Shown here: in pieces, positions 14,232 through 37,384 of the stretch
Numbering within the stretch: the stretch's first letter is position 1
Layout: every line of letters begins with the position of its first letter
From: Sphingosinicella sp.
Lineage (GTDB): Bacteria; Pseudomonadota; Alphaproteobacteria; Sphingomonadales; Sphingomonadaceae
DNA length: 64,000 bases
Reading direction: 5' to 3'
Assembly (NCBI GenBank): GCA_013816585.1
Contig: JACDEE010000001.1
Span: forward strand, 201,001 to 265,000
Notes under the pieces: generated by a model
The model's database searches: none
Told to the model about the DNA's origin: nothing
Seen by the model: only the letters and a program-made list of their open reading frames with translations
Program-made: the position numbers and the translations under genes

Positions 14232-15208
14232 GCCGATTGGCCGACGATAAAAGCTGGATGGCCGCCGCCATCGCGCTGGGCGAACGGGGCCGCGGCCGCA
14301 CGGCCCCCAATCCCAATGTCGGGTGCCTCATCGTCAAACAGGATAAAATGATCGGTCAAGGGTGGACCCAGCCGGGCGGGCGTCCGCATGCCGAAGCGAT
14401 GGCCCTGGCCGATGCGGGCGCGGAAGCGCGGGGCACGACAATCTATGTGACGCTGGAACCCTGCGCGCATCAGAGCGCCCGCGGCCCGGCCTGCGCGGAA
14501 CTGCTGGTGGAGGCTCGCCCAAAGCGGGTGGTGGTGGCGATCGGGGACCCCGATCCGAGGACGAACGGCCGGGGCGCCGAGCGCCTGAAGGCCGCCGGGA
14601 TCGAGGTCGAAACCGGCGTCGGGGCGGGGGCCGCCGAGCACTCGCTTGCCGGATTCCTGAGCCGAATCCGCCGGGGGCGTCCTTTCATCAGTCTGAAGCT
14701 CGCCATGTCGCTCGACGGAAAGATCGCGCTCCCTTCGGGAGAGAGCCGCTGGATCACCGGAGAAGATGCACGCGCGCACGCCCATCACGAGAGAGCGCGG
14801 GCGGACATGATCCTGGTCGGGCGCGGCACCTATGAAGCCGACGCCCCCAAACTGGACGTGCGCTTGCCGGGCCTCGAAGACCGCTCGCCGCGCCGCGCCC
14901 TGCTGACGCGCGGTGAGACTGTCGAAGGCTGGACCCGGCTGGGATCTCCTGAAGAGGTATTTGATCTGGAGGACGTCAACGATCTGCTGGTCGAAGGCGG
15001 AGCCGGCGCGGCCACCGCTTTCCTCGCGGCCGATCTGGTCGACCGGTTGCTCATCTACCGCGCTCCGATCCTGATCGGGGAAGGCAAGCAGGCGCTGGGC
15101 TATATCGGCCTTGCTGCCCTCGCCGACGCGCATCGCCGTTGGGAGATGGGCGAGACGCGGATGCTTGGCATCGACCGGCTTGAGGTTTACGAGCGCGTCC
15201 GAAGCTAA
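14228..15208 (+). CDS. ribD: Bifunctional pyrimidine deaminase/reductase RibD
   Basis: About 326 residues. Carries out steps two and three of riboflavin synthesis: deamination of the pyrimidine ring and reduction of the ribose. The N-terminal zinc deaminase has HAEAMAL and the cysteine ligands in TLEPCAHQSARGPACAE. The C-terminal reductase begins near FISLKLAMSLDGKIALPSGE and includes GRGTYEADAP and LLVEGGAG. The start is uncertain: TTG at 14228 overlaps the upstream stop (TTGA), TTG at 14237 is 9 nt later, and ATG at 14258 is also in frame; none has a strong ribosome-binding site. First enzyme gene of ribD-ribE-ribB-ribH. Confidence 0.93.
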   Translation: MSRLADDKSWMAAAIALGERGRGRTAPNPNVGCLIVKQDKMIGQGWTQPGGRPHAEAMALADAGAEARGTTIYVTLEPCAHQSARGPACAELLVEARPKRVVVAIGDPDPRTNGRGAERLKAAGIEVETGVGAGAAEHSLAGFLSRIRRGRPFISLKLAMSLDGKIALPSGESRWITGEDARAHAHHERARADMILVGRGTYEADAPKLDVRLPGLEDRSPRRALLTRGETVEGWTRLGSPEEVFDLEDVNDLLVEGGAGAATAFLAADLVDRLLIYRAPILIGEGKQALGYIGLAALADAHRRWEMGETRMLGIDRLEVYERVRS

Positions 15209-15810
15209 TGTTCACCGGCATCATCACAGACATTGGCCGAATCGAGGCCGCCGAACAAAAGGATGATCTGCGCCTGCAGATTGCCTGTGCCTACGACATG
15301 GTGACTATCGACCTTGGCGCATCGATCGCCTGTTCGGGCGTGTGCCTGACCGTGGTGGACAAAGGGGATGACTGGTTCGCGGTCGACGTGTCGGCTGAAA
15401 CGCATGGCTGCACCGCCAGCGACATGTGGGAAGAAGGCCGCCGCCTCAATCTGGAGCGGGCCTTGCGCGTTGGCGACGAATTGGGCGGCCATATCGTGAC
15501 CGGCCATGTGGACGGCGTCGGAACCGTCGAAGGCGTTACCAAGGTCGGCGGGTCCACCCGGATCATCATCATCGCCGGGGACGAGCTGGCGGGCTTCATC
15601 GCCGCCAAGGGGTCGATCACCCTGGATGGGGTCTCGCTGACCGTCAACGAGGTCGAACCCCTGTCAGAAGGGGTCCGCTTCGCGGTCAACATCATTCCCC
15701 ATACAGCCGAACAGACAAGCTTTTCCGAGATTGTCCCGGGCCGCCAGGTCAATATCGAGATCGACATTCTCGCCCGCTACCTGGGCCGGATGATGCAATC
15801 ACGCCTCTGA
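15208..15810 (+). CDS. ribE: Riboflavin synthase alpha subunit
   Basis: 200 residues with the two lumazine-binding repeats: MFTGIITDIGRIE opening the first, and GHIVTGHVDGVGTVE opening the second. Joins two 6,7-dimethyl-8-ribityllumazine molecules to give riboflavin. SGVCLTVVDKGDDWFAVDVS and the paired VSLTVNEVEP segment are typical. The ATG shares one base with the ribD stop (TAATG), implying coupled translation. Confidence 0.97.
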   Translation: MFTGIITDIGRIEAAEQKDDLRLQIACAYDMVTIDLGASIACSGVCLTVVDKGDDWFAVDVSAETHGCTASDMWEEGRRLNLERALRVGDELGGHIVTGHVDGVGTVEGVTKVGGSTRIIIIAGDELAGFIAAKGSITLDGVSLTVNEVEPLSEGVRFAVNIIPHTAEQTSFSEIVPGRQVNIEIDILARYLGRMMQSRL

Positions 15811-15850
15811 TGTGATCTCCTATTGCGATATCACATTGTGATGTGATATC
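15810..15850. promoter_or_regulatory. Palindromic operator candidate before ribB
   Basis: Perfect inverted repeat at 15827-15850: arms GATATCACAT and ATGTGATATC around TGTG. A third half-site ATGTGATCTC at 15810-15819 matches the right arm in 9 of 10 positions, in the same orientation, 31 bp away (about three helical turns). The palindrome ends 7 nt before the ribB ATG and fills the ribE-ribB gap. It is AT-rich compared with its surroundings and has no T-tract, so it is not a terminator. It could act as DNA (operator) or as an RNA hairpin at the start codon. Confidence 0.6.
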
Positions 15851-15857
15851 GGGCGCC

Positions 15858-17147
15858 ATGAGTAGCATCTTGATCGACCGGCTGTGCGAAATCGTCGAAG
15901 CCACCGACATGTCCCGGTCCGGCCTCGCCCGCGCCGCCGGCCTTCATCCCAATTCGCTTCGGAAGCTTGGCGACCCCGACTGGAATCCGACCGCGGAAAC
16001 ATTGCTCAAGCTGGAGAAATTTCTGGCCAGCGGCAGAAGCGGCGTGATGGCGAGCGCCCAGCAGATCATCGACGAAGCGCGCAACGGCCGCATGTTCATC
16101 CTGGTCGACGATGACGACCGCGAGAATGAGGGCGATCTGGTGATCCCGGCGCAAATGGCTACTCCCGATGCGATCAATTTCATGGCGCGGTACGGACGGG
16201 GCCTGATCTGCCTGGCGCTTTCCAAGACCCGCGTCGAGCAGCTCGGCCTCGGTCTCATGAGCCGCCACAACGGGACGCGCCATGAAACGGCCTTCACCAC
16301 CTCGATCGAAGCCAAGGAGGGAGTGACCACCGGCATTTCGGCCGCTGACCGCGCCCGCACCGTTTCGGTAGCGATCGACGCATCCAAGGGCCCCGAACAT
16401 ATCGTCACCCCCGGGCATGTCTTTCCCCTGGTGGCCAAGGAAGGCGGCGTGCTGATCCGCGCCGGGCATACCGAGGCCGCGGTGGATGTCTCGAGGCTCG
16501 CCGGCCTCAACCCTTCCGGTGTGATTTGCGAGATCATGCGCGACGACGGAACGATGGCGCGGATGGACGACCTGATCGAATTCGCCCAGATCCATAATCT
16601 CAAGATCGGCACCATTTCCGACCTGATCGCCTATCGGCTACAAAAAGACCGGCTGGTCGAACAGACCGCCGAAGCGCCGTTCGAAAGTCGCTGGGGCGGC
16701 ACCTGGACGGCCAAGACGTTCCTCAACAAGGCGCTGGGCAACGAACAGATCGCGCTGGTCAAAGGCAAGGTCGATCCCGAAAAGCCGACCTTGGTCCGGA
16801 TGCACGCGATGAGCATGTTTGCCGACGCCTTCGCCGAATCCGGTCCGCGCGGCGGACTGCTCGAGGGAGCGATGAAGACGATCGCCGATGAAGGTGCCGG
16901 GGTGATCGTGGTGATCAACCGGCCGATCCCGGACGGCCTGTCCCACGCGCTCGATGTCCGTTCGGGCAAGGCGGAGCAGAAGGATATGGAGGCGCTTCGC
17001 GATTATGGCGTGGGTGCACAGATCCTCGCCGCCCTTGGCGTACAGGACATGATCCTGCTGACTAATACCCATCACACGCCGGTCGCGCTTGGCGGCTATG
17101 GCCTCACCATAATCGGCGAACGACCGATCCCAACGGGGAAGGCTTGA
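15858..17147 (+). CDS. ribB: HTH-fused 3,4-dihydroxy-2-butanone 4-phosphate synthase with degenerate RibA-like domain
   Basis: 429 residues. Residues about 2-56 form an XRE-like helix-turn-helix ([20 protein letters not shown] at 18-37). Residues about 66-270 are the RibB enzyme that makes the four-carbon riboflavin precursor from ribulose 5-phosphate: [12 protein letters not shown] (83-94), [37 protein letters not shown]. The C-terminal part (about 275-429) has the fold pattern of GTP cyclohydrolase II but no cysteine at all, so the zinc site of RibA is missing and that activity is unlikely. ATG 15858 is preferred; an in-frame GTG at 15843 lies inside the palindrome. There is no clear ribosome-binding site. 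Confidence 0.93.
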
Positions 17148-17149
17148 GA

Positions 17150-17572
17150 ATGGCAAAGCTGCTGATCGTCGAGGCGCGTTTCTACGACCATTTGAACGAT
17201 TTGCTGATCGAGGGCGCCCGCGCGGCGATCGAGGCGGCAGGCCACGGGCATGAGATTGTCACTGTCCCGGGAGCGCTGGAAATTCCAGGCGCCGTCGCGC
17301 TGGCCGCGGAGACCGGACGTTATGAAGGCTTCGTCGCGTTGGGCGTGGTGATCCGCGGCGAAACCTATCATTTCGAAATCGTCAGCGGCGAAAGCGCGCG
17401 CGGCCTGATGGCGCTCAGCATGGACGGGATTGCGATCGGCAACGGCATCCTGACCGTCGAGAATGAAGCGCAGGCCCTGACCCGCGCCAGGCGCGACGAA
17501 AAGGATAAAGGCGGCGAAGCCGCCAGGGCCGCGATCACGATGATGGAATTAAAGGCGCGATTTGCGTCCTGA
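17150..17572 (+). CDS. ribH: 6,7-dimethyl-8-ribityllumazine synthase
   Basis: 140 residues. Condenses the RibB product with the pyrimidine from RibD to form lumazine. [41 protein letters not shown] (seen as [10 protein letters not shown] and [14 protein letters not shown]) and [14 protein letters not shown] are diagnostic. ATG 17150 lies 2 nt after the ribB stop and has GGGGAAGG upstream; a TTG at 17144 is an unlikely alternative. Last gene of the operon, convergent with the lipoprotein gene 14 nt away. Confidence 0.96.
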
Positions 17573-34900: not shown

Positions 34901-34981
34901 GCTGCACCGGCCCGCTCCCCCACCCAGCCTCCCATAGCCTACACTGCCGGGAGGCTGGGTGGGGGAGCGGGCTGGTGCAGT
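34901..34981. repeat. Long hairpin repeat between maeB and bamE
   Basis: Two 32-nt arms (34902-34933 and 34949-34980) are reverse complements with one mismatch, around a 15-nt loop. Arm cores read CCCGCTCCCCCACCCAGCC and its complement. It lies between the convergent ends of maeB and bamE. A shorter direct echo of its left end (GAGTGCCGCGCCaGGC versus GAGTGCTGCACCGGCC) sits about 26 nt upstream. It looks like a dispersed palindromic element of the REP/MITE kind, and it could also stop transcription from both sides. Confidence 0.85.
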
Positions 34982-36679: not shown

Positions 36680-37384
36680 TTACCGCCCGTAATTTTCGAT
36701 GATGTCGGCGAGCGGGATCTGGCCGCGCATAGCGCCCGAGCCGTTCGGGCTACCTCCATTTTCCAGCTCGATAGCGAAGGGCACGGCCGCCTCGGCCTCG
36801 ATCCGCTGTCGTACTGCGGCGAGGCGGGGCCAGCGGCCGATTTCGGCCACCTGATGATATTCCAGCCACCGTGCCACGCCGACCAGAATAGCGTCCGCGA
36901 GGGTCGGACGGTCGCCGACCAGATAAGGCGAATCGCCGATCATGCTCTCCAACTTGTCGTGCCGGTTGACCACCAGCTCCCGCCCCAATCGCCGCAAGGA
37001 TTCTTGAAATGCAGGATCGGGATCCTGCATTTCAAGCGCGGCCCACAAGGGCGTGAAGGCGCCGGTAAAGCCCGTATTGATGAAGGCCATCAACTGATGC
37101 ATTCGATCCGCTTCGCGCGACATCGGGTCGAAGCTGATCCGGCGTTCCGCATCCCGGGCTTCGAACCAGCCGGCGATTGCCATAGTCTCCGTCAGGAGTT
37201 CGCCTTCGCTGGTGATCAAGGCCGGCGTTTCGTGACGAGCATTGATCCGGGCGTAAGAAGGCTCGCGCATTTCACCCAGCATGTCGACGCGGCTTAATTG
37301 GTAGGGCTGCCCGAGCCATTCTAGCGCCGCGATAAGCCCCATCGAGCTGCCCGACGGGAAGCCGTAAACCAGGATCGGGTCCAT
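36680..37384 (-). CDS. Glutathione S-transferase family protein
   Basis: 234 residues. The N-terminal thioredoxin-like domain contains YGFPSGSSMGLIAALEWLG and the glutathione-binding ETPALITSEGELLTETMAI (TPAL and the ETM equivalent of the usual ES pair). The helical C-domain includes PYLVGDRPTLADAILVGVARW. AAGGAAA precedes the ATG. The substrate is unknown. It is divergent from an HxlR regulator gene, which would be its natural controller. Confidence 0.88.
   Translation of the reverse strand: MDPILVYGFPSGSSMGLIAALEWLGQPYQLSRVDMLGEMREPSYARINARHETPALITSEGELLTETMAIAGWFEARDAERRISFDPMSREADRMHQLMAFINTGFTGAFTPLWAALEMQDPDPAFQESLRRLGRELVVNRHDKLESMIGDSPYLVGDRPTLADAILVGVARWLEYHQVAEIGRWPRLAAVRQRIEAEAAVPFAIELENGGSPNGSGAMRGQIPLADIIENYGR

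Follow-up and report, generated by a model that had tools for sequence, protein, structure and literature searches.

A likely operator of HTH-fused RibB, probably derived from phage cro, in front of ribB in Sphingosinicella sp.

Introduction

Some enzymes also act as transcription factors; these trigger enzymes include PutA, BirA and NadR, with PutA counted among the single-target regulators (PMC8249747). These are other enzymes and other folds than RibB, and the available part of that source names no riboflavin enzyme. Archaeal RbkR, a riboflavin kinase with a helix-turn-helix (HTH) domain that is bifunctional as gene regulator and enzyme, is described in the accessible text of PMC8305020; it resembles the case presented here in joining a riboflavin-pathway enzyme to an HTH and differs from it in being a kinase and in belonging to archaea. 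The present case is found in a stretch of 64,000 nucleotides from Sphingosinicella sp. (contig JACDEE010000001.1, positions 201,001 to 265,000; hereafter the window), in which a perfect palindrome, O1, lies directly before ribB, a gene whose predicted product carries an N-terminal HTH on a 3,4-dihydroxy-2-butanone 4-phosphate (DHBP) synthase. We consider it likely that this dyad is the operator of an autoregulatory HTH-RibB, and that the HTH head and the operator are probably derived from a phage cro.

Two further systems invite comparison. Phage Cro is a small Cro/C1-type HTH protein, a type to which the head of RibB probably also belongs, and has an autoregulatory-looking dyad directly before its start codon, as is seen at ribB. 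Cro, however, stands alone beside a divergent CI-like repressor, whereas the RibB HTH is fused to an enzyme, with no partner repressor seen, and, unlike for Cro, the only target found for HTH-RibB is the enzyme's own gene. Given its fusion to an enzyme, the RibB HTH is therefore classed here as Cro-like or Cro-derived and not as a Cro. The flavin mononucleotide (FMN) riboswitch is a widespread bacterial control of riboflavin genes, a role that O1 may take over; it is an RNA aptamer, unlike O1, which is a DNA dyad. To our knowledge, no DHBP synthase is so far known to act as its own transcription factor. In the literature searched, outside which most subscription papers lie, no mention of an HTH-fused RibB or of this operator was found, including in the available portions of PMC12542839 and PMC13028884.

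Results and discussion

The predicted operator O1 (15826..15851, no strand assigned) reads CGATATCACAT-TGTG-ATGTGATATCG and is a perfect dyad by direct reading, with 11-bp arms at 15826-15836 and 15841-15851 around the centre TGTG (15837-15840) and a core formed by TCACAT (15831-15836), the 4-nt centre and ATGTGA (15841-15846). A sequence-only reading of this DNA had described a perfect palindrome with 10-bp arms; the perfection of the dyad stands, while each arm proved 1 bp longer per side. Its count of 7 nt between the dyad and the ribB ATG (15858) is right from the 10-bp arm, and the gap is 6 nt from the 11-bp arm. Searched with 22 fixed bases, the O1 pattern matches once in the window and not at all in 100 shuffles, with at most 3 mismatches allowed; searched with 20 fixed bases, it occupies a single place in the whole 2.82-Mb genome. 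By arm length alone, O1 is one of several such repeats in the window, as perfect inverted repeats with arms of at least 11 bp (11-24; loops of 0-20 scanned) start at five other places, namely 6075, 13871, 34910, 37003 and 53436, the last without a loop. Two of them are longer than O1, at 34910-34972 (arms of 24 bp) and 37003-37036 (arms of 16 bp). O1 rises above chance because it is conserved together with the HTH.

In order to follow this conservation, RibB relatives were taken from 60 genomes (57 with a match; 36 from the own family, by named loci Sphingomonas, Novosphingobium, Erythrobacter and kin, and 24 from others of the order) and from genome contigs, limited there to the top 80 of 371 relatives. 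Upstream stretches were scored by their matches out of 12 to TCACAT-N4-RTGTGA, leaving out the contig-end rows L017, L028, L055 and L085; one upstream set was made without L001, identical to L002, and without L035, at a contig end. Among 47 non-redundant upstreams of HTH-bearing ribB (75 bp), 38 score 12/12, seven score 11 and two score 10, and their shuffled versions reach 12/12 once in 9400 and at least 10 in 164 of 9400. The HTH-less set comprises 57 upstreams (58 rows were scored and L031, which carries the HTH, was set aside), 14 of them family rows, with L032 repeating L018, and 43 from outside the family; none scores above 9/12, even within 260 bp. The longer pattern TCACATN4RTGTGAT is found in 21 of the 60 relatives' genomes, and the reversed control pattern matches once across them (G053). 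Nineteen of the 21 belong to the 36 genomes of the own family, and in all 19 the sole place is the ribB start, on which ground a wider regulon was rejected as a candidate. With one target place per genome, the idea is therefore directly testable. The two genomes from outside the family (G042, G045) showed no rib gene in a stretch of 3 kb.

The same association appears in a survey of 149 family genomes, where the HTH profile A2 matches 116 and the exact core TCACATN4RTGTGA is present in 84. Cross-tabulated by hand, the exact core occurs in 83 of the 116 HTH-positive genomes versus one of the 33 HTH-negative ones (20 listed by name, 13 by subtraction). Because the HTH match of G066 is only a stand-alone protein, HTH-RibB is present in 115 genomes, not 116. 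The places of the exact core, listed for 82 of the 84 genomes, lie 0-120 bp upstream of an HTH frame in 75, most commonly at 12 bp; seven further genomes with HTH-RibB (G079, G080, G088, G096, G151, G180, G195), in which the exact site is elsewhere or not among the places listed, carry a comparable dyad close to the start, and together with these 75 and the 33 genomes treated next they account for the 115. Among the 33 HTH-positive genomes without the exact core, 32 have a dyad scoring 10-11/12 and one a dyad scoring 9, at most 68 bp from the frame. When relatives are compared across the ribE-ribB gap, dyads thus go with the HTH: in a pool that includes other loci, 114 of the 115 distinct upstreams with the HTH reach 10/12 or better (the exception, G082, scores 9), versus none of the 57 HTH-less ones above 9. 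In this pool the RibB motif is visible in 80 stretches, the other 35 being too short, with long frames known from the survey. This co-occurrence supports the earlier proposal of an autoregulatory operator and suggests autoregulation.

A few exact sites have other surroundings. In G151 (L183:1430) and G088 (L184:3456), exact cores lie about 1.1 kb and about 0.2 kb downstream of ribH, and the dyad at ribB itself is inexact. In G149, a second exact copy of the operator (L188:2186) is located at the end of an HNH-like gene and before a terminase-like gene, in a prophage-like stretch whose gene names were assigned by eye.

The history of the two elements was followed on a RibB tree of 68 rows, built with the HTH region excluded and without L028 and L055. 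On this tree the HTH label takes six changes, four of them forced by well supported branches (seven and five, respectively, with L055 included), a pattern that would fit a single gain at the root of the family followed by some five losses. The HTH and the dyad are lost jointly in about five lineages, and therefore the cassette behaves as one unit. All HTH-less rows that could be scored are without the dyad. In 7 of the 13 HTH-less family rows listed, the ribB ATG abuts or overlaps a stop codon, the upstream sequence of L017 covering only 8 nt.

The nearest stand-alone relatives of the RibB HTH are phage Cro-like proteins. Three clear ones occur in the surveyed family genomes (G066, G070, G085), together with weaker matches in G026, G103 and G148, and each of the three genes is divergently oriented to a neighbour whose repressor-like product combines a weak HTH match with an S24 peptidase domain, an arrangement equivalent to that of cro and cI. 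Contigs from IMG/VR provide further members, the G066 protein being found at 100% on a 38-kb viral contig. Upstream of the G066 prophage cro, the sequence GATGTGAT-N7-TTGAAA-A-TCACAT-TCAG-ATGTGT lies 13 nt before the ATG, so that half-site, -35-like hexamer and dyad (11/12) follow one another as they do before ribB; an operator of this type (11/12) is also present on IMG/VR contig L232. The upstream regions of ten Cro-like genes were searched mechanically; in seven, a perfect dyad centred on 4 nt precedes the ATG by 10-34 nt. These dyads form three classes: CACAT with the helix LHPNTLR (L185), GCATAT with the helices IHHNTLL and LHRNTLY (L186, L187) and CGCAT with the helix xxDTxLR (L190, L235, L225, L239). 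Four of 30 further loci were inspected (L239, L244, L245, L246). The match between dyad classes and helices suggests, on small numbers, that operator sequence changes with the recognition helix; the RibB helix type (LHPN/LHAN, S/T, LR) goes with CACAT in phage and host alike. Covariation of dyad and recognition helix, as the sequence-only reading had envisaged it, is thus seen among the phage Cro-like relatives and not within the RibB family, where both hardly vary.

In a tree of the HTH itself (60 columns), a supported branch puts the three prophage proteins of the family, L192 and a single CoaBC row on the RibB side. Stand-alone HTH relatives occur in other families of the class, whereas among the loci searched HTH-RibB frames were found only in the own family; from this difference in breadth, phage to host is the presumed direction of transfer.

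The same HTH type is also fused to CoaBC in another family of the order (L223:991-2463 in G200; L224 in G241), the former recognized by the Pfam domains DFP and Flavoprotein and the latter assigned by similar sequence. No TCACAT dyad was seen by eye upstream of these two genes. This is a predicted parallel fusion to a coenzyme enzyme.

A different host-encoded regulator might bind the dyad, the RibB HTH having another target or none. The sequence alone names no binder, and TGTGA/TCACA resembles a half-site of CRP; CRP sites, however, have the order TGTGA-N6-TCACA, of which the TCACA-N6-TGTGA of O1 is the reverse, and the CRP/FNR site order is likewise unmatched by half-sites that run TCACAT-N4-ATGTGA. 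Together with the joint losses of HTH and dyad, the single place per genome in 19 family genomes and the dyads of the Cro-like relatives, which are found in the equivalent position and change with the recognition helix of each relative, this makes a host regulator very improbable in our view.

O1 seems to have had a partner. ATGTGATCTC, at 15810-15819, starts 31 bp ahead of the right arm of O1 (15841), which it matches, just as the sequence-only reading had it when it noted a phased third half-site, and it overlaps the ribE stop TGA (15808-15810). The predicted remnant of this second operator, O2, is the half-site ATGTGAT at 15810..15816 on the forward strand, three helical turns (31 bp) upstream of the right arm. 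In relatives, upstream half-sites of the same sense are most frequent at 31 bp (24%) and 32 bp (23%) from the right arm of O1, 47% together, versus 0-5% at other distances between 17 and 69 bp, and two dyads scoring at least 10/12 and spaced 30-32 bp apart are present in 10 of the 33 genomes without the exact core. In view of this distance peak and of the double dyads, the third half-site is read as a degenerate second operator, probably a remnant on the same face of the DNA. In the window, the missing left half of O2 would fall in the last codons of ribE, and about half of the relatives are without the O2 half-site.

O1 also appears to be embedded in a promoter. A -35-like TTGCGA (15823..15828, forward strand) stands 18 nt before a -10-like TATCGG (15847..15852, forward strand), which ends 5 nt before the ATG and would put the transcription start at or next to it. 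In line with this layout, 70 of 114 relatives have a TTG at 3-11 bp ahead of TCACAT, versus 8 of 114 in the mirror-image control, and 76 of 114 have TA immediately following TGTGA, versus 14 of 114 in the mirrored control; these one-sided signals fit a promoter with the operator as its spacer and a start near the ATG. The dyad lies mostly 12 nt before the start codon, accompanied by these signals, and the Cro-like relatives show the same layout. The ribB start of the window has no Shine-Dalgarno-like sequence (best 3/6 to AGGAGG), in agreement with the earlier remark that no ribosome-binding site separates dyad and ATG, and a Shine-Dalgarno score of at least 4 is reached by 27 of 97 HTH-ribB starts versus 92 of 100 ribH starts and 42% of shuffles. 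With the dyad filling a promoter-like spacer and no Shine-Dalgarno sequence, the ribB mRNA is therefore probably leaderless. A different arrangement is observed in L019 (G026), where 27 bp separate the dyad from the ATG and an AAAGGA stretch comes after the dyad; the genus of G026 may therefore have a leader with a ribosome-binding site.

The layout also bears on the sign of the regulation. The position of O2, upstream of the -35-like element, is a common one for activators, and phage Cro needs no ligand, so that HTH-RibB could bind the dyad and activate, or could serve as a ligand-free copy counter in the manner of Cro. O1, however, is the best conserved part and is flanked by the -35-like and -10-like elements, a place at which a bound protein normally blocks polymerase, and this speaks against activation. 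Taken together, we hold activation or ligand-free copy counting to be unlikely.

It had further been suggested that the dyad folds as an RNA hairpin over the start of the ribE-ribB transcript and controls translation. A 41-nt stretch does fold at -14.4 kcal/mol (z -2.13), and a transcript reading through from ribE would include the dyad; with 81 nt, however, z is only -0.64, and a leaderless start would exclude the dyad from the mRNA. Translational control of this kind did not find support in the pairing counts over 114 upstreams either: the first flank pair is kept in 79, the next five in 35, 39, 52, 50 and 52, at or near chance, so that pairing beyond 7 bp is no better than, or close to, chance across relatives. 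Changes in the core mostly break pairs (pair 1: TA 83, TC 7, GA 7, TT 6, AA 4), and the R at the innermost position varies in the O2 half-site too. The chance that we give to a hairpin is accordingly minimal, and a hairpin or attenuator was set aside on pairing counts and layout.

An FMN riboswitch, considered as the control of ribB, was found neither in the window nor in the family genomes. Rfam at gathering scores gave no match in the window; under strict filters, with which weak matches can be lost, RF00050 was found neither in this genome (G000) nor in any of 36 family genomes (0 of 36), and it was present in 4 of 24 other genomes of the order. As none of the 36 family genomes yielded this riboswitch, the operator may therefore fill its role.

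The protein that would read the operator is encoded by ribB (15858..17147, forward strand; 429 aa plus stop) and combines HTH, DHBP synthase and GTP-cyclohydrolase-II-like domains. The N-terminal Cro/C1-type HTH (residues 1-58; 15858..16031, forward strand) was assigned by the HTH profile match, an AlphaFold2 model (pLDDT 87) and a weak Pfam HTH_3 match (E 0.0026, below the curated cut-off); its matches to PHROG transcriptional regulators are also weak (best E 0.0013). The DHBP synthase domain (PF00926, E 3.9e-82) spans residues 69-259 (16062..16634, forward strand), and the presence of HTH and PF00926 in one frame, that is, of an enzyme with a fused DNA-binding-type domain, is a feature of trigger enzymes, catalysis being predicted. 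The GTP-cyclohydrolase-II-like domain (PF00925; residues 269-422, 16662..17123, forward strand) has, in the alignment to 4i14, no equivalent of three cysteines or of the EGRGIGL stretch found in the Mycobacterium tuberculosis RibBA chain, which we take to be zinc ligands and catalytic residues of that protein, and is probably not catalytic. A separate and stronger match to the GTP-cyclohydrolase-II family (215.8 bits versus 110.3 for the RibB domain) is present on this contig at a distance of about 106 kb (G000:C32:324053-324547). Given these missing residues and the stronger match elsewhere, the fused RibB is therefore probably a DHBP synthase with a spare domain. Upstream lies ribE (riboflavin synthase; 15208..15810, forward strand), whose stop overlaps O2, and downstream ribH (lumazine synthase; 17144..17572, forward strand), which is probably co-transcribed with ribB from the putative operator-controlled promoter. 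Second RibB copies in two relatives (G013:C7:30817-31428, G005:C62:50945-51607) have an in-frame TGA inside the matched stretch.

These observations allow us to propose a model whose binding, repression, ligand, transcription start and transfer direction we infer from sequence. A RibB dimer would read the O1 half-sites TCACAT/ATGTGA through its N-terminal HTH, O1 occupying the spacer of a leaderless promoter directly before ribB (and ribH), and a second dimer could touch O2, three helical turns upstream, where O2 is present. RibB bound to O1 would block RNA polymerase and shut the promoter, so that RibB would limit its own synthesis. A ligand that alters the RibB dimer would tune the repression, the candidate sites being the DHBP synthase active site and the degenerate cyclohydrolase-like domain. 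HTH, operator and leaderless promoter would most likely have come as one cassette from a temperate-phage cro and been inserted between ribE and ribB in an ancestor of the family.

Several observations weigh against this model. Repression rather than activation is deduced solely from the position of the putative operator, and a strict scan for the sigma-70 consensus found no promoter here, the promoter therefore being one that we infer. G098 is the HTH-negative genome with the exact core, and 12 exact sites lie elsewhere in the genomes surveyed for position. Foldseek with the HTH model gave no match at E 0.001; its list holds the XRE folds HipB, P22 c2 and 434 Cro, none of them at that threshold. 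Regarding the phage origin, no perfect dyad was found upstream of L191, L236 and L244, three of the ten Cro-like genes, and the relative L192 was left out of that test. In the HTH tree, the RibB label needs four changes (one forced) and a single RibB clade appears in 0% of 200 bootstraps; with so few columns, this tree therefore decides neither whether capture happened once nor which way the transfer went. A constructed HTH query of 61 aa matched no annotated phage record, and the full 20-base dyad of the window is in no viral contig searched, so that the link to phages rests on the IMG/VR contigs and the prophages.

Conclusion

On balance, we lean, with moderate confidence, towards the broader view that a temperate-phage cro entered the ribE-ribB gap together with its operator and leaderless promoter, became joined in frame to ribB and gave rise to a self-repressing enzyme, the separate HTH-CoaBC fusion hinting that this route from phage repressor to metabolic regulator may be recurrent. 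If true, HTH-RibB would be the first DHBP synthase known to us that doubles as a transcription factor for its own gene, and protein and operator would together form a clear example of a phage regulatory cassette recruited into metabolism. It would also explain how vitamin B2 synthesis is controlled in a large bacterial family whose searched genomes yielded no FMN riboswitch.
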